Assembly: GCF_036077095.1 (NCBI RefSeq) | Contig: NZ_CP107960.1 | Location: 4,154,001-4,218,000, forward strand | From: Streptomyces sp. NBC_00376 | Lineage (GTDB): Bacteria; Actinomycetota; Actinomycetes; Streptomycetales; Streptomycetaceae | DNA length: 64,000 bases | Direction: 5' to 3' | In this document: piece by piece, positions 49,848 to 64,000 of the stretch | How the letters are laid out: the number at the start of each line of letters is the position of its first letter | Position numbering within the stretch: position 1 is the first letter of the stretch | Made by a program: the position numbers and the translations under genes | Notes under the pieces: model-generated | What the model was told of the DNA's origin: nothing | Database searches by the model: none | The model's input: only the letters and a program-made list of their open reading frames with translations

Positions 49848-51851
49848 TCAGACGAGGCGGACGGGCTTGTCGGTGCGTACACCGATGGAAGCGAGCCAGG
49901 ACCGCAGCGGTTCCGCGTCCCCGTCCTCGACCAGGCTCAGGACCGGACTGCCCAGGTCCGCCCGGCGCTCGCCGTCGATCAGCAGTGCGGGGCCGTCGAG
50001 CCAGTCGAGACCGGGCGCCGCGCCCGCCGTGTCCACCGCGGCGCAGCAGACCATGGCCGCGACGTGGTCGGCGAGCAGCTCCGTACCCGTGCGGGGCGGC
50101 TGGAGCGGGAAGAGCGGGAGGGGGTCGGGGCCCCAGAGGTCCAGGGCGTCCCCGTCGGGACCGGCGGCGGCCGGGGCGCCTGCCCGGCCGGAGGCGGCAG
50201 CGGCCCGGTGCCGCTGGGCCGCTGCCTCCTCACGGGCCACCGCGGCGCTGATCCCCGCGGCAAGCTCCTCGCCGCTTCCGGCCCGGCCTGCCAGATGCTC
50301 GACGACGCGGGCCAGCGTGGGCATCCCGGCGTCGATGGAGCAGGTGACGGGGCGGGAGGGGTCGTCGGGGGCGGCGGGGGTGCCGGGGGTGTTGGTGGAG
50401 GGGTGACGGTCGTCACGCGGGGCGTTGGAGCCATGGAAGCTGCCGGGGCCGTCGGGTCGGCCGGGGAGCTCGGGGGTGCCAGGGCGCTCAGGGGTGCCAG
50501 GGCGCTCGGGGGTGGGACCTGTCGTGGGCGCGGTGGGTGCGCCGGGCGGGGTGGGGGTGTCGGCCGGGGTGGGAGTGTCGGCCGGGGTAGGTGCGCCGGG
50601 CGGGGTAGGTGCGCCGGGCGGGGTGGGTGCGGAAGTCATCGCGTCGAGGACGCGGTGCAGGCGGGCGGCCTCTGTACGCCACTTACGGTCGACGACCTCT
50701 TCCGGGTACTGCTGCCAGTCGACCGGCGACCAGTCCGGCCCCGTACAGGCCGGACCGCCGTGGAACAGGCGGGCCGCCAGCAGCGATGCCGCCTCGTCGG
50801 CCGCGCCCGGCTCCTCTAGAAGGTCGCAGGCGGGGCGCTCGCCGAGCCGTGAGGCGAATCCGTCGGCAAGCCGGTCGCGCCGGGACAGCTCGGTGAGGGC
50901 GGACACCACGCCCGCGTCCAGCCGGGACGGCCAGCGGCCCATCCGCCAGGCGGGCAGGGCGACCCGGGTGAGCAGCCGGTCCCAGCCCGCGTAGGCGAGG
51001 CCGACCTGCTCCTGGGCGACGATCCGCAGACCGTAATCCACACCCTGTGCACGGACCGACGCCGCGACGGCGACGCTCCGCTCCATCTCGGCGGCGTGGT
51101 CTCGGCAGCTGCGCAGCAGCAGCCTGGCGATCCGGCCGACGAAGGCGCGGGGCACTCTGCGCAGCCCGGCCAGCGGACCCGGCACGGGCGCGGCCGCGTC
51201 GGCGACCGCGCCGTCGAGTCCCCGTAGGAAACGGCGGGCGGCGGCTATGTCGGGATGCGCGGACGGGCCGGTGCCCGCGACGACCGGGGCGAGCACCGCC
51301 CGTAGCTCGGCGACCCGCATCCACCACAGGAACGGCGAACCGATGACCAGCACCGGAGCCGCCTGGACCCGGCGTCGGGACCGGGCCGCGGAATGCGCGG
51401 CCGGATCGGGGCCGGTGCCCGCCAGAAGCTGCGCCGAGGGGTGGGTGCGGTCCTCCAGCCAGCTGTCGCAGTCGGGCGTCAGGGCTATCGCCGAGGGCGC
51501 GGGAACCCCGAGCCGGTCGGCCAGGTCCCTGACCAGGCGGTAGAGATCGGGGGCGGCCTTCTCCGGGAGCGGGACGGTCGGGCTGACCGCCGGCCTCGCC
51601 CGTACGATCGCGACCGCGACCGCTGCGGCGATGAGCAGCACGGCGACCGCGAAGGCCGTCACGGCCCAGCGCGCCGTGTCCCAGCCGCTGCCCACGGCGA
51701 GGCCCTGGGCACCCGCCACGAGCAGCACGACGGCCACCGCCGCCGGCAGGATCGCCACGGCTGCTGCCCTGCCGCGGATGCGCAGCACGGCGTGAGCTCG
51801 GGCACGCGCACTCAGCGCACCCAGCTCCTCACTTGTACCGGTACCGGACAC
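49848..51851 (-). CDS. Membrane protein with a degenerate M48-peptidase-like domain
   Basis: A 667-residue protein with two N-terminal membrane helices (about 29-50 and 62-83). What follows is laid out like an M48/HtpX peptidase (LYRLVRDLADRLGVPAPSAI, then VIGSPFLWWMRVAELRAVLA), but where HExxH should follow the EL segment it reads APVVAGTG. The expected later E/D ligand segment is HAAEMERSV. The zinc site therefore appears lost. The middle holds Pro-Gly-Ala-Thr tandem repeats. The C-terminal third has no known domain. GTG start. Function unknown; the M48 relation is inferred. Confidence 0.7.
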   Translation of the reverse strand: MSGTGTSEELGALSARARAHAVLRIRGRAAAVAILPAAVAVVLLVAGAQGLAVGSGWDTARWAVTAFAVAVLLIAAAVAVAIVRARPAVSPTVPLPEKAAPDLYRLVRDLADRLGVPAPSAIALTPDCDSWLEDRTHPSAQLLAGTGPDPAAHSAARSRRRVQAAPVLVIGSPFLWWMRVAELRAVLAPVVAGTGPSAHPDIAAARRFLRGLDGAVADAAAPVPGPLAGLRRVPRAFVGRIARLLLRSCRDHAAEMERSVAVAASVRAQGVDYGLRIVAQEQVGLAYAGWDRLLTRVALPAWRMGRWPSRLDAGVVSALTELSRRDRLADGFASRLGERPACDLLEEPGAADEAASLLAARLFHGGPACTGPDWSPVDWQQYPEEVVDRKWRTEAARLHRVLDAMTSAPTPPGAPTPPGAPTPADTPTPADTPTPPGAPTAPTTGPTPERPGTPERPGTPELPGRPDGPGSFHGSNAPRDDRHPSTNTPGTPAAPDDPSRPVTCSIDAGMPTLARVVEHLAGRAGSGEELAAGISAAVAREEAAAQRHRAAAASGRAGAPAAAGPDGDALDLWGPDPLPLFPLQPPRTGTELLADHVAAMVCCAAVDTAGAAPGLDWLDGPALLIDGERRADLGSPVLSLVEDGDAEPLRSWLASIGVRTDKPVRLV
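50473..50631 (-). repeat. 18-bp tandem repeats coding Pro-rich hexapeptides
   Basis: Two repeat families inside the preceding gene: an 18-bp unit encoding PPGAPT/PADTPT (about 50536-50631) and another encoding ERPGTP/ELPGRP (about 50473-50510). Copies are nearly identical, so length variation between strains is likely. Confidence 0.8.
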
Positions 51852-56137: not shown

Positions 56138-56222
56138 GGAGGATTCGCCTAGTGGCCTAGGGCGCACGCTTGGAAAGCGTGTTGGGGGCAACCCCTCACG
56201 AGTTCGAATCTCGTATCCTCCG
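56138..56222 (+). tRNA. tRNA-Ser (GGA)
   Basis: An 85-nt class II tRNA with a long variable arm; anticodon GGA in loop TTGGAAA; acceptor GGAGGAT/ATCCTCC. It is intact. Its 3' part, from the anticodon loop on, is repeated at 63272, so it is the attachment site of the island that follows. Confidence 0.96.
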
Positions 56223-56258
56223 CCATTGCTCTCACCGGGCAATACGTCGAAGGGCCCC
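56169..56258 (+). repeat. Left attachment-site repeat (attL)
   Basis: A 90-bp segment running from the tRNA-Ser anticodon loop through its 3' end and into the first arm of the downstream terminator. It recurs without a mismatch at 63272-63361. Confidence 0.9.
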
Positions 56259-56284
56259 ACCGCTTGCGGTGGGGCCCTTCGACG
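56245..56284 (+). terminator. Terminator of tRNA-Ser
   Basis: Perfect 19-bp inverted repeat (56245-56263 with 56266-56284). Related hairpins recur at 62740-62790 and 63348-63386. Confidence 0.8.
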
Positions 56285-56332
56285 TTCGTAGTCGTGGGTG
56301 ATGGGTTCGAACCGTCTCCGGCCCGGACGGCG

Positions 56333-56479
56333 TTAGGCCGCTGTCAGCACCCCGAGGCACAGGACCATGCAGCCGGCGAACGCCGTGCCGGCTATGAAGA
56401 CAGCCTCGGGTTGTCCTGTCCCTGAGCCCCTTTTCACGTGGCTCCGCCGCCCTCGCGTCAGGTGCGGGCGTCCGTTCAT
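56333..56479 (-). CDS. Possible 48-residue membrane peptide
   Basis: From an ATG the frame reads MNGRPHLTRG and ends in a single hydrophobic helix (AVFIAGTAFAGCMVLCLGV). It resembles small one-helix peptides of actinobacterial mobile elements in size only. No good ribosome site, and it overlaps the decayed hsdS frame. Low confidence. Confidence 0.3.
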   Translation of the reverse strand: MNGRPHLTRGRRSHVKRGSGTGQPEAVFIAGTAFAGCMVLCLGVLTAA

Positions 56480-56820
56480 CGGACAAGAGAGCACTCCCCA
56501 TCAGCAGGGTCGCGAGTTCGCCGTGCGCGCGTTCCGCCGCCCGCCACTACCTGGTGGTGGGCCTCGATCTGGCTGTCGAGTGCGCACAGGAGATCACCCA
56601 TGCGGCGCTGCTCCTCGATGGATGGCAGCGGTACGGGAAGCTGCTGCATCGCCTTTGTCTTGATCGAGGCGACGATGGTCATCTCTGCTCGGTCTTTGAT
56701 CCATGCCTGTACTCCCGGAAGGGACAGGAAGGCAGGGGCGTTGATCCGGCGCGCCGAACGCTCCATCACGGAGATCCCGCTCATCCCACCGGCCCGGTCG
56801 CGCCGAGCGTCGGCGAACAC
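56430..56820 (-). pseudogene. Remnant of a type I restriction specificity subunit (hsdS), frameshifted
   Basis: The 3' part of an HsdS-like gene. One frame gives the C-terminal conserved region (MTIVASIKTKAMQQLPVPLP, then SIEEQRRMGDLLCALDSQIE). Near 56540 the homologous reading moves to another frame (AAERAHGELATLLMGSALLS). The DNA-recognition domains are missing, and no hsdM or hsdR is present. Recognised from the IPLPPLxEQRRI-like motif and helical spacer of HsdS. Non-functional. Confidence 0.7.
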
Positions 56821-57081
56821 AGGGCGCCGGGCCCCGATCGCCGCACGGACATCGGACCGCCGCTCCGGGTCAGGATCCTTCGGTCAGCGACCGGCCCCAT
56901 GACTCCCGTCCGGCTCCTCTTTGGCGCTCCTGTTCGGCTCCTGTTCGACTCCTGTCAGATTCCTGTCAGGTTCCCCGAGGTGGGACAACCGGTGATGACA
57001 CGTCACCCTCTCCCCGGTGCGGGGGGTGCTCCTGGGATTCCTGGGGCGCTGAAGCACAACCAACAACGAGGAGACACCATC
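56821..57081. other. Spacer between the hsdS remnant and the esterase gene
   Basis: No gene seen. Around 56915-56975 there are short direct repeats (CTCCTGTTCG- and CCTGTCAG-like). The esterase promoter must lie here. Confidence 0.35.
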
Positions 57082-59853
57082 GTGAGACAGGTCTCACGCG
57101 CGCTGACGGCTGCCTTGGCGGCCGTGACGCTGGCGGCGGGTGTGCCAGGGCCGGCGCATGCACAACCGGCCGCCGAGTCCATACCCGGCGCGCCGCCGGG
57201 CGCCGCCGGGGAGCGGCTGCCGGAGGGCTGGCGTATCGAGGGCGGGGAGCTGATCTGGAGCTCGCCCGAGCCCGTGGGCATGGGCGGCGCCCTGGTCGAG
57301 TTCCGCTCTGGGGAGCGGACCCTCGGCGTCCCGGAGCCCTCCCCCGACCAACGCACCTTCCGGCTCCGCCTCGACGGGGCCAGGGTCGGACCGGTGAGCG
57401 AACTCCAGGTGGTCGCCGGTTCGCGGCGGCTGGACGCCGCAAAGGCCGACCAGGCACCCCGTCAGCGGCGCTCGTCGGCTGCGGAGGCACCCCAGGAGCC
57501 GTTCCCCGCCAACCCGGTCGACCCCGGTGTCGCCGGTAAGTACCACACCATCAGTGGTGAGTACTCCCTGAAGTCGGTGAGGTTGCCGGGCTACGCCGAG
57601 CCCGTGGAGATGCGCGCCACGGTCGTCGGCCCGACGGACGCGCCGGGGAAGCGGCCGCTGGCGCTCTTCGTCCACGGCCGCGGCGCCACCTGCTACGAGC
57701 CCGGCAAGAACAGCGCGGGCATGGAGTGGCCGTGCAAGCCGGGCAACAAGGAGATCCCGAGCTACCGCGGCTTTCTGCACGACCAGAAGCTCCTGGCATC
57801 CCAGGGCTATGTGACGGTCTCCATCTCCGCGAACGGTGTCAACGCGCAGGACGGCCGCGCGGCCGACTTCGGGGCGCAGGCCCGTTCGTCCCTGGTGCGC
57901 CAGCACCTCGCCCGCTGGGCGGAGTGGGGTGCGAGCCCCGCGAAGGCCCCCGAGGCCGTGCGCGCGACAAAGCCCGCGGACCTCTCGAAGGTGCTCCTGG
58001 TCGGCCACTCCCGAGGCGGCGAGGGCGTCAACCGGGCGGCACTCGACAGCGTCTCCCCGCCGCCGCCCGCCGAGGACGGCTACCGGGGGCCGGTGGGCTG
58101 GCGGATCCGCGGCACCGTCCTGATCGGCCCCACCAACTTCGGCCAGAACCCCACGCCCGACGTGCCCTCCATGACCCTCCTGCCGGGCTGTGACGGCGAT
58201 GTGAGCAACCTCCAGGGCCAGATCTACCTCGACGGCACACGGGGCATCGGCCAGGGCACGGCGCTGCACAGCGCGGTGTACATGGTCGGCGCCAACCACA
58301 ACTTCTTCAACACGGAGTGGACGCCCGGCCAGGCCGAGGCCCCGGCCGCCGACGACTTCTGGGACGACAAGAACAACCCGGACCCGGTCTGCTCGGCACG
58401 GGCCGAGACCCGGCTGAGCGCCAAGCAGCAGCAGACGGCGGGCGCCACCTATATCGCCGCCGCCGCGCGGCTCTTCCTCGCAGGCGACGACCGGGTCCGC
58501 CCGCTGCTCGACGGCTCAGACCGGCGCGCGCCCTCGGCCGACCCCGCCCGGGTGCTGACCCACGCCGTCGGCGGCAACCGCACCCCGGCGATCCGGCCCG
58601 ACGACCCGCTCTCGGTGACGAACGGGCGCGTGTGCCAGCAGGTCACGACGAGCGCCACCCGGGCCTGCCGGCCGGACTCCGCCCCCGGTGCGTCGCCGCA
58701 CTTCGCGTCCTGGGCGGACACCACCAATGAACCGGGCCGCAACGCGGTCACGGCCCGCTGGACCACGCCGGGCACCCCGGTCCGGCTGACGCCGGAGCGC
58801 GCCTTCTCGCTGGCGGGCTCCGACGCGCTCGCCCTGCGGGTGATGGTGCCGCCGAACACCCGGGGCACCCGGCTCGACGTCGCCCTCACCGACACCTCCG
58901 GCAAGCGGGTGGGGCTCGGTCAGGTCACCGTCGACGGCCTCCCCGGCTCCGACTCGACGGCCGCGTACTGGGCGCGTGAGGTCCGCGTCCCGCTGAAGGC
59001 CGCCGTCAGCGCCGGAGTCGACCTGAAGCGGACGCAGTCGCTGGAGCTCACCCCGCGCAGCGGCTCCGGCGAGCTCTGGCTCATGGACGCCTGGGGCTGG
59101 CGCCCCGGCACCCTGGCGGTACGCCCCGTCGCACTCTCGCGTGTCGACATCGGCAGGCTGACGGTCAAGGAGGGCGACTCCGGCACCCGCACCTACAACG
59201 TGCCCGTCCAGGTCACCGGCAAGGGCACCGGCGTGATCAAGCTCGCCGTCCGCGACCCGGAGACCCACGAGTCCACCGTCCGCACCGTGACGGTGAAGGC
59301 CGGTGGCTCCGTGGACGTGCCGATCACGGTCAAGGGCAATTCCCGCTTCAACTACGACCTCAGCCACGAGGTCGCGGCCAAGGCCGTGCGCGGCACAGCG
59401 GTCGGCGGCGCCTTCGGGGGCGTGCTCGTCGAGAACGACGACCCCATGCCCACGGTCAGCGTGACCCCGGTCGCCGACTCGGTCACCGAGGGCCAGAAGC
59501 TCACCTGGAAGGTGGAGCTCTCCCAGCCCGCCGACATCAGCATCGAGACGAGGTTCGACCTCCTGCCGGTGCGCGAGGGCACGGAGCTGTCCACGAAGGA
59601 CGTCGACGAGGAGTGGCTCTCCAGCCTCGGCGAGGACGCCGACCCGGAGCGGCCCCTGTCCACGAACAGCCCCTCCCTCTGGGTGTCCGTCCCCAAGGGC
59701 GAGACGAGCACCGAAGTGTCCGTGCCCACGGTCACCGACGCGCTGACCGAGTCGGAGGAGTCCCTGCGGATGCAGGTGAACATCCTCAAGGAGAACGAGT
59801 GGTTGGAGGGCCCTCTCCTCACGGGGAAGGTCACGGACGCGCGCCAGGGCTGA
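57082..59853 (+). CDS. Large secreted alpha/beta-hydrolase with C-terminal Calx-beta-like domains
   Basis: A 923-residue exported protein. GTG start with a GAGGAG site and a clear signal peptide (RALTAALAAVTLAAGVPGPAHA). Residues about 150-500 form an alpha/beta-hydrolase: oxyanion loop LFVHGRGATCY, nucleophile elbow VGHSRGGEG and a late histidine in GANHNFFNTEW. The C-terminal 250 residues contain Calx-beta/immunoglobulin-like strands (VADSVTEGQKLTWKVELSQP). Probably an extracellular esterase or lipase; substrate unknown. It is the only large intact plus-strand gene of the island. Confidence 0.85.
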   Translation: MRQVSRALTAALAAVTLAAGVPGPAHAQPAAESIPGAPPGAAGERLPEGWRIEGGELIWSSPEPVGMGGALVEFRSGERTLGVPEPSPDQRTFRLRLDGARVGPVSELQVVAGSRRLDAAKADQAPRQRRSSAAEAPQEPFPANPVDPGVAGKYHTISGEYSLKSVRLPGYAEPVEMRATVVGPTDAPGKRPLALFVHGRGATCYEPGKNSAGMEWPCKPGNKEIPSYRGFLHDQKLLASQGYVTVSISANGVNAQDGRAADFGAQARSSLVRQHLARWAEWGASPAKAPEAVRATKPADLSKVLLVGHSRGGEGVNRAALDSVSPPPPAEDGYRGPVGWRIRGTVLIGPTNFGQNPTPDVPSMTLLPGCDGDVSNLQGQIYLDGTRGIGQGTALHSAVYMVGANHNFFNTEWTPGQAEAPAADDFWDDKNNPDPVCSARAETRLSAKQQQTAGATYIAAAARLFLAGDDRVRPLLDGSDRRAPSADPARVLTHAVGGNRTPAIRPDDPLSVTNGRVCQQVTTSATRACRPDSAPGASPHFASWADTTNEPGRNAVTARWTTPGTPVRLTPERAFSLAGSDALALRVMVPPNTRGTRLDVALTDTSGKRVGLGQVTVDGLPGSDSTAAYWAREVRVPLKAAVSAGVDLKRTQSLELTPRSGSGELWLMDAWGWRPGTLAVRPVALSRVDIGRLTVKEGDSGTRTYNVPVQVTGKGTGVIKLAVRDPETHESTVRTVTVKAGGSVDVPITVKGNSRFNYDLSHEVAAKAVRGTAVGGAFGGVLVENDDPMPTVSVTPVADSVTEGQKLTWKVELSQPADISIETRFDLLPVREGTELSTKDVDEEWLSSLGEDADPERPLSTNSPSLWVSVPKGETSTEVSVPTVTDALTESEESLRMQVNILKENEWLEGPLLTGKVTDARQG

Positions 59854-60041: not shown

Positions 60042-61553
60042 CTACGCGTCGGCGAGCAGTGGGTCATAGGCGGTCGAGCGCCGGCGGCCCGACATGAAGG
60101 AGAGGAAGTCCTTCACGAACGCGCTGCGTGAGTACCTTGCGTCGGCGTCGGCCACCGTGCGCCGGAACCCGGTCCGGAACAGGGCCCGGTACTCGTCCGC
60201 GTCGATGAACTGGTTGCCGTCCGCGTCGGTGACGTCGAAGAGCACTTCGGCGACCCTGATCAGCGCGGGCCCGGCGAGGGAGGGGACAGCGGCGGCGTAC
60301 TCCTCCTTGCTGATCCGGCCGTCGCCGTCGATGTCGAGGGCCGCCTGGAGTTCCCTCCACCACTCGGCATACGCGTGGTAGAGCCTGGTCTCCTCCGGTT
60401 CGTCCAGATCGAGGCGGGAGGACAGCTCCCGGGCCATGGCGGCGAGATCGGGCCAGTCCAGGTAGCCGTCGCCGGTCTGGTCCAGCACCGCGGTGAAGAA
60501 TTCGTCGGCGCTCCGCTGCGATCCGGTTCCCTCGGCGGGACCGTGCTGCACGCCAAACGGCGTCACCAGCCGGAACAGGGCGCCGGCCTGTTTCATCCGG
60601 CCGCGCAGCGCGGTGAGCGTCGCGGCTTGAGGGACGTCGCTGTCCGAGGACAGGTAGAGCAGGCTGGTGAGGCCCTCGGCCCGGAGCCAGTTGTCGGGCA
60701 GGAAGCGCGCCAGGCCGACGGCCACGTAGACGCTTTGCATCAGCGTCTGGGCGCCAGGGATTTCGGGCAGACCCGCCCGTCGGCGGAAAGGCTCGGGGAG
60801 GGACGCCACCGTGATCGTGCCGATCACCGGGCCTGCGAGCGCGCGGCCCGCCGCCCATACGGTGGGCAGGCCGTCCAGCAGGGGCGGTGCCGGGAGATGG
60901 TCGAAGAGCTTGTAGAGAATGATGCGCAGCGCCTCCGTGTCCTCCAGTTCCTCCTGGACCATGTGGTCGTAGTACTGCCAGAACTCCTGCAACGTGGGCG
61001 GCAGATGGCCGACCCCGTCCCCCAAGGCCGCGAGGAATGCCTGGTATTCGGCGTAGAGCCGTTCCATGGAGGTCTGGTCGAGCGGCTGCCCGCTCAGTCG
61101 GCACATGGTGACGGAGCTCTCGAAGAGGGTCGCGACCACCCAGGCGCGGACCTGGGGGTCCATCGCGTCGTAGGGCCGGTCCTGTGTGTCGGTGCCGCTC
61201 AGCCGCGCGTGCAGGCGGTTGAGCCGCGCCGCCTCCCTTTGCCGCTCGTTGTCGTCGGTGCCGAACATGCGCTGCAGGCTCACGAGGGTGTTGCGCAGCC
61301 GTCGCCACGGGTGGGCGACGAACGTCGAGTTGTCGATCAGGGCCGCGCCGATCTGCGGGTGGGCGGCCTCCAGTACCGTGGCTCTGACCATGGCCAGTGC
61401 CCAGCGCGGATCGTTGAAGAACCGGTGGAACTGCGAGTCGGGACCGAACGGAGATCCGGACTGTGCTTCGGGGGTCGGCCGCGCGCGGTCACCGTGGTGA
61501 CCGGTGGCTCCGGGACGCGTACCCCTGGGGCGGCTGCTGCCTGTGTCCGTCAC
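60042..61553 (-). CDS. MpaB/Lcp-type (DUF2236) oxygenase fused to an EF-hand domain
   Basis: A 503-residue protein. Residues about 40-310 follow the DUF2236 pattern: FFNDPRWALAMVRATVLEAA, then AHPQIGAA with H65, a WRRLRNTL segment and H115 in RLHARLSG. This family includes latex-clearing protein and fungal MpaB, haem oxygenases that cleave isoprenoid chains. The C-terminal part has three EF-hand loops: 358-369 (DQTGDGYLDWPD), 407-418 (DIDGDGRISKEE) and 443-454 (DADGNQFIDADE). GTG start overlaps the stop of the cis-prenyltransferase by 4 nt (GTGA). There is no export signal. Confidence 0.8.
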   Translation of the reverse strand: MTDTGSSRPRGTRPGATGHHGDRARPTPEAQSGSPFGPDSQFHRFFNDPRWALAMVRATVLEAAHPQIGAALIDNSTFVAHPWRRLRNTLVSLQRMFGTDDNERQREAARLNRLHARLSGTDTQDRPYDAMDPQVRAWVVATLFESSVTMCRLSGQPLDQTSMERLYAEYQAFLAALGDGVGHLPPTLQEFWQYYDHMVQEELEDTEALRIILYKLFDHLPAPPLLDGLPTVWAAGRALAGPVIGTITVASLPEPFRRRAGLPEIPGAQTLMQSVYVAVGLARFLPDNWLRAEGLTSLLYLSSDSDVPQAATLTALRGRMKQAGALFRLVTPFGVQHGPAEGTGSQRSADEFFTAVLDQTGDGYLDWPDLAAMARELSSRLDLDEPEETRLYHAYAEWWRELQAALDIDGDGRISKEEYAAAVPSLAGPALIRVAEVLFDVTDADGNQFIDADEYRALFRTGFRRTVADADARYSRSAFVKDFLSFMSGRRRSTAYDPLLADA

Positions 61554-62353
61554 GGGTGAGGTTCTCCGTTCGAGTGCGGCGTCACACCGCCGAAGCGGCG
61601 ATTGCGTTGCTGGTAGGCCTGCAGGCACTCCAAGAAGTGCGGCGCACGGAAGTCGGGCCAGAGCACCGGCGGGAAGGTCCACTCGGCGTAGGCCACCTGC
61701 CAGAGCATGAAGTTGGAGATCCGCTGTTCGCCGGACGTCCGGATGACGAGGTCCACATCGGGCGTGTCGGAAAAGGGCAGGTGAGCGGCGAAATGCTGCT
61801 CGTCGACGGCATCGGCCGGTACCCCGCTGCGGATGAGGGACCGTGCCGCCTCGACGATGTCCCTGCGTCCGCCGTGGTCGAACGCCACGGTCAGCGTCAT
61901 GCCTCGGTTCGTGTTGGTCAGCGTCATCAGGTCGGCGAAGTCCCGGGCCAGTGGCCCGGGGATCCTCGGGTCCGCCACTCCGAGGAACCGGCAGCGGATG
62001 CCGCGCGCGTGCAGCAACGGGGCGTGTTTGCGCACTACGCGGCGCACCAGTTGCATCAGGAAGTCGATCTCGCTGCTCGGGCGTCGCCAGTTCTCGGTGG
62101 AGAACGCGTACAGGCTCAGCCACTCCACTCCCGACGTCCGCGCCGCCTCGATGACGTCGATCACCGTTGTTTCCGCTGCCCGGTGACCCGATGTGCGGGG
62201 TAAGGAGCGCCGTGCCGCCCACCGGCCGTTCCCGTCCATCACGCACGCGACATGGCGCGGCACCCCCCTGTGCCGGTCCTCACCGGTCGGGCGTCGCGGA
62301 GGTGTATGGGCCGACGACGAGGCAGAAGTGCCGCCCACTCGTTCAACCGTCAT
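61550..62353 (-). CDS. cis-Prenyltransferase (UPP synthase family), probably specialised
   Basis: A 267-residue isoprenyl diphosphate synthase of the UppS fold. HVACVMDGNGRWAARRS carries catalytic D40; the second half has the signature RTSGEQRISNFMLWQ with downstream YAEWTFPPVLWP. It lacks the usual housekeeping context and lies in the tRNA-Ser island, so it is probably an accessory enzyme making a short-chain cis-prenyl or lavandulyl-type diphosphate, not the essential UppS. The ATG (MTVERVGGTS) has a GGGGGAG site. It is coupled to the downstream oxygenase. Confidence 0.88.
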   Translation of the reverse strand: MTVERVGGTSASSSAHTPPRRPTGEDRHRGVPRHVACVMDGNGRWAARRSLPRTSGHRAAETTVIDVIEAARTSGVEWLSLYAFSTENWRRPSSEIDFLMQLVRRVVRKHAPLLHARGIRCRFLGVADPRIPGPLARDFADLMTLTNTNRGMTLTVAFDHGGRRDIVEAARSLIRSGVPADAVDEQHFAAHLPFSDTPDVDLVIRTSGEQRISNFMLWQVAYAEWTFPPVLWPDFRAPHFLECLQAYQQRNRRFGGVTPHSNGEPHP

Positions 62354-62737
62354 CCGTGCTCCCCCGGCTGCCGCAACATAGTCCCCCTCCGCCTCGCACC
62401 CACCCGCTGGTCGCAGCGCCTCCTGGCCGCAAGGCCCTGCCGCGGTGCGCCCGGACAGCGCCCCGTTGTGTCCGGACTCCGCTGAGCGCGTTGCGCATCC
62501 GCCGGAAGCCCGTCGAGGCTGCCGGACGGGTTTCGCTCCCGCAGACGGCGGACCGGCCTGCTCCACCGGACGGTCCCGGGGGATCCTCCGCCGCAGCGCC
62601 ACTCGGATCGACACTCAGCAGAGTGCCGGTGCCCGGCCCCGGACACATCGCAATCTCCACATATTCACCTGTAGTACGTCAGTCCGCTTTAACGACCTCG
62701 TGGTCGCGCCTTGACCGGAATCGGGTGCCCGGGCAAG
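62354..62737. other. Non-coding spacer of the island
   Basis: No gene supported. The minus-strand frame upstream of the prenyltransferase ATG has no conserved content. An AT-richer patch at about 62650-62700 may be the promoter of the prenyltransferase operon. Confidence 0.35.
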
Positions 62738-62985: not shown

Positions 62986-63271
62986 TGGATGCTCGTCGGA
63001 TGCGTGCTGCTGCGCCGGGCGGGGAGGAACTGGCCGGGCGGGCCCGTCGTGGCGCGGTGTGGGCTTCGGCCGCGGTGCTTGCCGTGGTCGGTGCCGGCGG
63101 CTGGCTGGGGCTCACCGATGGAGGCCGGGGCAACGGCTCCGCGCCGGTCTCCGAGGCGGCGACAACGTCGCCCGGCTGCTGGCCCGTTGGGACGCGGGAA
63201 GCCAGGAGGCATTCGTGGCGAAGATGAGCCGCGCCTGCGCGGTGAGCGCGCTGGAGTCGGCCGGACGAACC
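62986..63271 (+). pseudogene. Truncated, frameshifted membrane-protein ORF
   Basis: Starts at a GTG with a strong GAGAGGTGG site: VDARRMRAAAPGGEELAGRA, then one hydrophobic segment (VWASAAVLAVVGAGGWLGL). Around 63150 codon bias shifts to another frame (VARLLARWDAGSQEAFVAKM), which runs into the right attachment repeat and ends there. Probably a small anchored protein truncated by the integration event. Family not recognised. Confidence 0.4.
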
Positions 63272-63361
63272 CTTGGAAAGCGTGTTGGGGGCAACCCCTC
63301 ACGAGTTCGAATCTCGTATCCTCCGCCATTGCTCTCACCGGGCAATACGTCGAAGGGCCCC
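63272..63361 (+). repeat. Right attachment-site repeat (attR), partial tRNA-Ser
   Basis: Exact copy of 56169-56258: tRNA-Ser from the anticodon loop to the 3' end plus 36 bp downstream. It lacks the acceptor 5' strand and D arm and cannot form a tRNA. Beyond it the hairpin continues with a different tip (GCAGCTCGCTGC). Confidence 0.9.
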
Positions 63362-63408
63362 GCAGCTCGCTGCGGGGCCCTTCGACGTTCGTGCTCCGCG
63401 CGGCGGGT

Positions 63409-64000
63409 TCAGCGGCACAGGGCGGTGTCCACGACGCGTTCGAGGGTTCGCCGGCCCGGCTCGTCGGTGAGCTGCGTGGTGACGGTGACATTGGCGGCTC
63501 GGCCGTCGTCGGTGGCGCCGCCCCGGGTCTCGTAGCCCGGGAAGCTGCCGCCGTGGCCCCAGGAGAGGCCGCCGCACGGCAGCGGCCTGCTGACCAGGCC
63601 GAGTCCGTAGCGGGCGCCGGGGCCGAAGGTCGCTTCGGCGGGGACGGTGGAGCGCATCCGGGCGAGCTGGGCCGGGGGCAGGAGGCGGCCGGCCAGGAGT
63701 GCGCTGAAGAAGCGGTTGAGGTCGGAGCCGGTGGAGATCATCTGGCCTGCGGCCCAGCCCCAGGAGGGGTCGATCTCCGTGATGTCGCGCAGCGGTCCGT
63801 CCGCCGATTCCCGGTAGTAACCGTGGGGGTGCGGCTCCCGGATGGTCACGTCGCCGGGGGCGGGGAAGTACGTGTGGCGCAGCCCGATGCGCTTGATGAC
63901 GCGCCGGTCGATCTCCTCGGCCAGGGGGCGGCCGGTGACCTTCTGGACGATCAGGCCGGCGAGCACGTAATTGGTGTTGCTGTACTTCCAACTCGTCCCG
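63409..64000 (-). CDS. Beta-lactamase-fold serine hydrolase (5' end outside window)
   Basis: The C-terminal part of a class C beta-lactamase/D-alanyl-D-alanine carboxypeptidase-like serine hydrolase. Visible are the Tyr motif YSN (WKYSNTNYVLAG) near the window edge and the third motif HGG (LSWGHGGSFPGYE). The SxxK motif lies outside. It is the first gene past the island and is probably the original chromosomal neighbour of tRNA-Ser. Secreted family members act on peptidoglycan or esters. Confidence 0.88.
   Translation of the reverse strand, partial: GTSWKYSNTNYVLAGLIVQKVTGRPLAEEIDRRVIKRIGLRHTYFPAPGDVTIREPHPHGYYRESADGPLRDITEIDPSWGWAAGQMISTGSDLNRFFSALLAGRLLPPAQLARMRSTVPAEATFGPGARYGLGLVSRPLPCGGLSWGHGGSFPGYETRGGATDDGRAANVTVTTQLTDEPGRRTLERVVDTALCR

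Follow-up and report, generated by a model that had tools for sequence, protein, structure and literature searches.

A mobile gene pair of a UppS-type cis-prenyltransferase and an EF-hand-bearing MpaB/Lcp-type oxygenase in Streptomyces

The window analyzed here is a 64,000-nucleotide (nt) stretch of Streptomyces sp. NBC_00376 (contig NZ_CP107960.1, positions 4,154,001 to 4,218,000; genome size, 10.04 Mb). It carries a pair of genes encoding a UppS-type cis-prenyltransferase and an MpaB/Lcp-type oxygenase extended by an EF-hand module (MpaB-EF; Table 1). UppS matched PF01255 over residues 38-255 (E = 5e-73) and TIGR00055 with 231 bits (cut-off, 109.55). MpaB-EF matched PF09995 (MPAB_Lcp_cat) over residues 44-275 (E = 1e-48; 166.7 bits vs. 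a cut-off of 23) and the Pfam EF-hand models at about residues 357-461. The UppS reading frame ends in CCG TGA, and four bases (GTGA) are common to its stop codon TGA and to the GTG start of MpaB-EF. At the other end of UppS, where sequence conservation sets in some distance inside the annotated frame, a further in-frame GTG lies upstream at 62614. The original prediction, a UppS-fold gene whose stop overlaps the start of a DUF2236 and EF-hand protein through GTGA, was exact in its coordinates, and its domains were confirmed by Pfam. Relatives of MpaB-EF carry generic database names (oxygenase MpaB family, DUF2236, calcium-binding or EF-hand domain-containing protein).

Table 1. Positions of the gene pair, its domains, and the surrounding features in the window; fractions are counts of pair-family sequences that keep the residue
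Feature	Position	Strand	Remarks
UppS-type cis-prenyltransferase, 267 amino acids	61550..62353	-	PF01255, TIGR00055; core conserved from residue ~29; start codon in doubt
MpaB/Lcp-type oxygenase with C-terminal EF-hand module (MpaB-EF), 503 amino acids	60042..61553	-	GTG start at 61553
GTGA stop/start overlap, UppS to MpaB-EF	61550..61553	-	Read directly from the sequence
MPAB_Lcp_cat catalytic domain, residues 44-275, with R85, T89, and H115	60729..61424	-	Pfam match and residue conservation
EF-hand loop 1, residues 358-369	60447..60482	-	D358, D369 91/91; T360 90/91; D362 85/91; D366 71/91
EF-hand loop 2, residues 407-418	60300..60335	-	D407, D409, D411, E418 each 90/91
EF-hand loop 3, residues 443-454	60192..60227	-	D443, E454 90/91; D445 85/91; D451 81/91
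Degenerate fourth EF-hand, about residues 469-480	60114..60149	-	No conservation of the loop acids within the pair family
Conserved upstream element, consensus TCGGAC-N6-GC-CAAGGGTGAA	62664..62685	-	About 310 nt 5′ of the annotated UppS ATG
tRNA-Ser(gga), integration site	56138..56225	+	
Left copy of the 130-nt direct repeat (3′ part of the tRNA with its terminator)	56160..56289	+	
Right copy of the 130-nt direct repeat	63263..63392	+	94% identical; outer island end
Type I restriction specificity subunit fragment, in island	56476..56820	-	PADLOC Specificity_I E = 7e-10; PF01420 E = 2e-4
Island neighbor convergent with the pair	56554..59853	+	Looks by eye like a secreted alpha/beta hydrolase (GHSRGG); actual start lies later

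The two genes co-occurred far more often than chance would allow. Among 295 Streptomyces genomes (thresholds of E ≤ 1e-60 for MpaB-EF and E ≤ 1e-85 for the UppS clade), 69 had MpaB-EF matches, which comprised 59 orthologs (some split or truncated) and 10 members of a distant family (36-38% identity). The UppS clade was present in 58 genomes, all of them among the 59 with an MpaB-EF ortholog (Fisher test, P = 3e-61, relatedness ignored), and the sole genome with MpaB-EF and no UppS clade (G075) retains no more of the MpaB gene than its C-terminal part. UppS adjoined MpaB-EF in 58 of 58 genomes (57 by tblastn on the locus DNA and G208 by match coordinates). Each of two genomes (G203 and G178) had an additional degraded MpaB copy with no UppS beside it (L075 and L077). 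Both genes were present in 21 of 23 loci from named genomes, and only part of the MpaB gene was present in the other two. In a class-wide sample of 197 genomes, an MpaB-EF ortholog (57-58% identity) with UppS adjacent was also found in two genomes of another family, one of which encodes a protein identical to a Microbispora bryophytorum record over the matched 95%. In the order of Microbispora (121 genomes), MpaB-EF matches (E ≤ 1e-90) occurred in 16 genomes, with UppS sequence adjacent in 16 of 16; one of these pairs was decayed in both genes. Named MpaB-EF protein records also came from Microtetraspora, Streptosporangium, Nonomuraea, Actinomadura, and others. Among 396 genomes sampled across the phylum, three, all Streptomyces, contained the UppS clade; a fourth match (L164, another family, UppS 55% identical) was rejected as a housekeeping-type copy, with neighbors that by eye were recO-like and era-like. 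Eroded copies of the pair were seen at L028 (the same as L079), L031, L075, L077, and L214.

The linkage of UppS and MpaB-EF is firm, and the two genes form a real unit. An in-frame MpaB-EF start giving a 4-nt overlap with the UppS stop was available in 55 of 57 pairs of the Streptomyces sample and in 77 of 81 loci when three duplicates and other sources were counted; because the test takes the start codon nearest to the stop, these figures describe the availability of an overlap start and do not demonstrate its use. No third conserved gene emerged from clustering of the neighbors at the 23 loci and the window: beyond the pair, the commonest family was dnaX at the tRNA-Ser site, with 7 of 24 loci. 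Because the neighbors were called with a simple script, some short genes may have escaped detection. A gene for a small EF-hand protein of 177 amino acids (L015, 9550-10083, with a relative in L027) lay near the pair in 2 of 23 loci. Neither pair protein matched PADLOC-DB, which gives a defense-system reading no support from that source, and no description of the pair was found in the open literature, a scope that excludes most subscription papers.

The flanking genes of the pair vary between loci, and the pair appears to travel. Distances between UppS sequences correlated with those between MpaB sequences (r = 0.79 over 78 loci), but hardly with distances between housekeeping UppS genes (r = 0.24 for UppS and r = 0.19 for MpaB, 30 of the 58 genomes), which indicates that the pair moves as a unit. 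For example, G179, the closest genome to that of the window when judged by the housekeeping gene (1.6% difference), is 17% and 24% divergent in the pair. Matches were also present in 18 plasmid records, seven of them at 60-80% identity, and in one of these seven the matched region carries a uppS annotation. A 7.1-kb island beside dnaX encloses the pair of the window; it extends from tRNA-Ser(gga) to a 130-nt repeat that duplicates the 3′ part of the tRNA and its terminator. Of 23 other loci, 6 occupy this dnaX/tRNA-Ser(gga) site, which is an integration hot spot; the pair is present at four of them, and an eroded MpaB gene at the other two. At the two places with eroded copies, part of the MpaB gene is left without UppS. 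The tRNA-Ser duplication and the co-transfer of the two genes support the mobile island that had been proposed from the sequence.

The convergent neighbor in the island lies outside the conserved unit; its product had no Pfam or NCBIfam match, and a related gene was found in 3 of 23 loci. There was no integrase-like gene among the script-predicted island genes (integrases were not searched for by profile). Just outside the island, a serine-hydrolase (PF00144) gene fragment occupies 63409-63999 and runs off the window end, with relatives found close to this tRNA-Ser in L025. A G-rich tandem repeat with an 18-nt period was observed at 50508-50645 (six overlapping 48-nt copies listed).

Upstream of UppS, a simple motif search recovered a conserved element in 66 of 73 upstream stretches, with at least 6 of 45 listed sites unconvincing. 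The element scored 24.7 bits per sequence (66 sequences) vs. 10.1 in base-shuffled controls; these controls were simple base shuffles searched from fewer starts, and the score is raised by relatedness among the sequences. The variant in the window occurs once in its genome at ≤3 mismatches. In six other genomes, the consensus had 23 sites at ≤2 mismatches vs. 8 for the backward control; 4 of the 23 lay within approximately 1.2 kb upstream of the pair, and none was so placed in G069 and G105. The element may be a dedicated promoter or operator; we do not propose a regulon for it.

The genome of the window has three UppS genes, the pair type and two further copies, so the pair gene is not the only UppS, a case that the original prediction had singled out for checking. 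Relatives had exactly two UppS genes in 11 of 14 cases and three or four in the other 3. The UppS of the window shares 42% identity with one housekeeping type and 37% with the other. In a tree of 79 pair-type and 30 other UppS sequences (without L033, L041, and L103, duplicates of L011, L024, and L083, and without loci having UppS <200 or MpaB <420 amino acids), the pair type formed one clade with a support of 0.89 and a stem of 0.54. Residue conservation was counted in 91 UppS and 91 MpaB sequences, with 90 loci common to both. The MpaB set comprised 78 earlier proteins and those of 13 loci of the Microbispora order; it left out L199 and L201 (duplicates of L105 and L106), the decayed L214, the truncated L028, L031, L075, L077, and L079, and the split L074, and kept the frame-shifted L073. 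The catalytic Asp (D40), the FSTENW motif (F84-W89), the RTSGEQR motif (R205-R211), and the Glu ligand E224 were invariant in 91 of 91 UppS sequences. Close to conserved motifs, the clade also carries fixed substitutions, mainly DH for NY/GY at 159-160 and A60 for G. From the invariant catalytic residues, the Ala that precedes FSTEN, and the clade-fixed changes, UppS of the pair is likely to be active, unlikely to be a short-chain enzyme, and likely to be more than a spare copy.

These data bear on two other explanations of the pair. One is turnover of lipid carriers: UppS would make extra C50/C55 carrier, and MpaB-EF would degrade or edit polyprenyl lipids at raised calcium, as an envelope-stress or antibiotic-tolerance module. 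Consistent with this, UppS retains the catalytic residues and the Ala (A83) of the carrier-making type, its best PDB matches are long-chain enzymes, and the pair is accessory and mobile. Decaprenyl and trans,polycis-polyprenyl diphosphate synthases (2vg2 and 7cpm/7cpn) were among these best matches (E = 6e-67 to 8e-60) and share the catalytic residues and the Ala before FSTEN. Synthases of this type have a housekeeping role, and the relative of this type in the same genome lacks the pair-clade changes (A60, W78, L102, and D159-H160). Against carrier turnover, the long stem and fixed changes such as DH at 159-160 are unexpected in a spare copy, and two other UppS genes are still in the genome. 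We regard carrier turnover as unlikely.

A second explanation, which we rate as rather improbable, is a short cis-prenyl signal or volatile, in which a Z-farnesyl diphosphate or an irregular C10/C15 product is made and then oxidized. A two-gene unit would suit such a small pathway, and a farnesyl chain is the target of MpaB in mycophenolic acid biosynthesis. Against it, the residue before FSTEN, which we take to be a determinant of chain length, was Ala in 91 of 91 pair UppS sequences, as in the decaprenyl type, whereas Leu precedes the LSTEN motif both in the short-chain Z-isoprenyl synthase 2vg1 and in L002, another UppS of the same genome with 2vg1 as its best PDB match. Pair UppS matched cyclolavandulyl diphosphate synthases only at E = 1e-14, far more weakly than long-chain enzymes. 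The original prediction held for the architecture, the co-occurrence in other genomes, and the mobile island, whereas its cis-farnesyl or lavandulyl-type product is not favored.

MpaB-EF is one of five PF09995 oxygenases in the genome of the window. Its predicted structure has a globin-like catalytic fold that matches trans-anethole oxygenase and latex clearing protein (Lcp). The active-site residues of LcpK30 are given as Arg164, Thr168, and His198, and Lcp is described as extracellular (PMC5522427). Counterparts of these residues, R85-xxx-T89 and H115, were invariant in 91 of 91 pair proteins and in 10 of 10 proteins of a solo family described below; the assignment, which answers the concern over heme ligands voiced with the original prediction, was made by motif spacing rather than by residue-level structural alignment. 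Judging from this motif, MpaB-EF would bind heme. Overall similarity to the known enzymes is low. Lcp (LcpK30, PDB 5o1l/5o1m) is 12% identical, has a different T-to-H spacing, and lacks EF-hands, whereas trans-anethole oxygenase of Stenotrophomonas maltophilia (PDB 8s1j) is 13% identical, has by name an aromatic substrate, and also lacks the EF-hand module. When the catalytic-domain sequence was searched against PDB, one query (A2) gave no match and another (A3) gave only 5o1m, with E = 0.38 and outside the heme motif. E62 was invariant in the pair family, but the position cannot be equated with the catalytic Glu148 that lies in the channel of Lcp. The PF09995 name derives from MpaB of the mycophenolic acid pathway, a fungal, endoplasmic reticulum-bound enzyme with a trans-farnesyl substrate that acts on the prenyl chain. 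We know of no UppS partner of Lcp.

In EF-hand loops 1-3 of MpaB-EF, 90 or 91 of 91 sequences retained the first and last ligands; the sole exception in the counts of loops 2 and 3 was L073, which is frame-shifted there. The middle ligands varied more, and position 447 of loop 3 was split between N, D, and S. Given this conservation of the loop ligands, calcium binding is very likely, and calcium would regulate the oxygenase. NCBIfam matches to XopAW and lanmodulin in the EF-hand part were far below the cut-off. Calerythrin (1nya) and the calcium-binding protein of S. coelicolor (3aka/3akb) stand alone, whereas in MpaB-EF the module is fused to an oxygenase and its fourth EF-hand is degenerate. 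A solo family of EF-hand MpaB proteins in Streptomyces and Kitasatospora (L062-L071) has the same two-domain architecture and the R/T/H residues at 33-38% identity, but there was no UppS in 10 of 10 of its loci (8.5-13.5 kb of DNA each). Its fourth EF-hand is canonical (D471 and E478 in 10 of 10), unlike that of the pair family, and it has Q at position 62 and D at position 65 (8 of 10). Matches at a similar identity to that of the solo family were seen on five S. goshikiensis plasmids.

The residue patterns weigh against a third explanation, one that we consider distinctly improbable: that MpaB-EF no longer oxidizes and is a heme- and calcium-dependent regulator or partner of UppS. The coupling and the 1:1 occurrence would fit such a pair, as would the loss of the HAT His and the better conservation of UppS than of MpaB-EF (median distance, 0.18 vs. 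0.28). However, the heme motif and many residues of the catalytic domain are invariant across two orders, and the solo family, which has no UppS at its loci, keeps the same R/T/H in 10 of 10 proteins. That the genes are chance neighbors on islands, for which the unrelated cargo might be cited, is refuted by their adjacency in 58 of 58 and 16 of 16 genomes in differing surroundings, the common overlap, and their co-transfer.

The reading that we prefer, and to which we give an even chance, is a self-contained mobile module of two genes for cis-polyprenyl synthesis followed by calcium-responsive oxidation, most likely cleavage, by a heme oxygenase. UppS would condense isopentenyl diphosphate (IPP) in cis onto an allylic diphosphate, probably farnesyl diphosphate (FPP), yielding a (Z,E)-polyprenyl diphosphate of medium or long chain length. 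MpaB-EF, presumably a cytosolic enzyme made in step with UppS through translational coupling, would then act as a heme oxygenase of the MpaB/Lcp/trans-anethole oxygenase fold and would oxidize, most likely cleave, C=C bonds of the chain. Its substrate could be the polyprenyl chain, its alcohol, or its phosphate, with keto/aldehyde apo-isoprenoids as the expected products, and the fused calerythrin-like module would make the oxidation step respond to calcium. More tentatively, and with considerable doubt, the pair may be a make-and-cut route carried as one mobile unit in Streptomycetales and Streptosporangiales, in which a dedicated cis-polyprenyl synthase and a translation-coupled, calcium-gated heme oxygenase release a diffusible keto/aldehyde isoprenoid signal, by analogy with the apocarotenoid hormones that arise from carotenoid cleavage.

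PF09995 oxygenases abound in actinobacteria, but few have a known substrate, and the strictly linked prenyltransferase points directly to the substrate class of this branch. Because the prenyltransferase is linked and the EF-hands offer an on/off variable, the chemistry of the branch can be tested with just the two proteins, IPP/FPP, and calcium. Should the proposed route be true, MpaB-EF would, to our knowledge, be the first protein of the MpaB/Lcp fold to be switched by calcium, and the pair would represent a new isoprenoid class and a bacterial case of calcium-controlled oxygenase chemistry.
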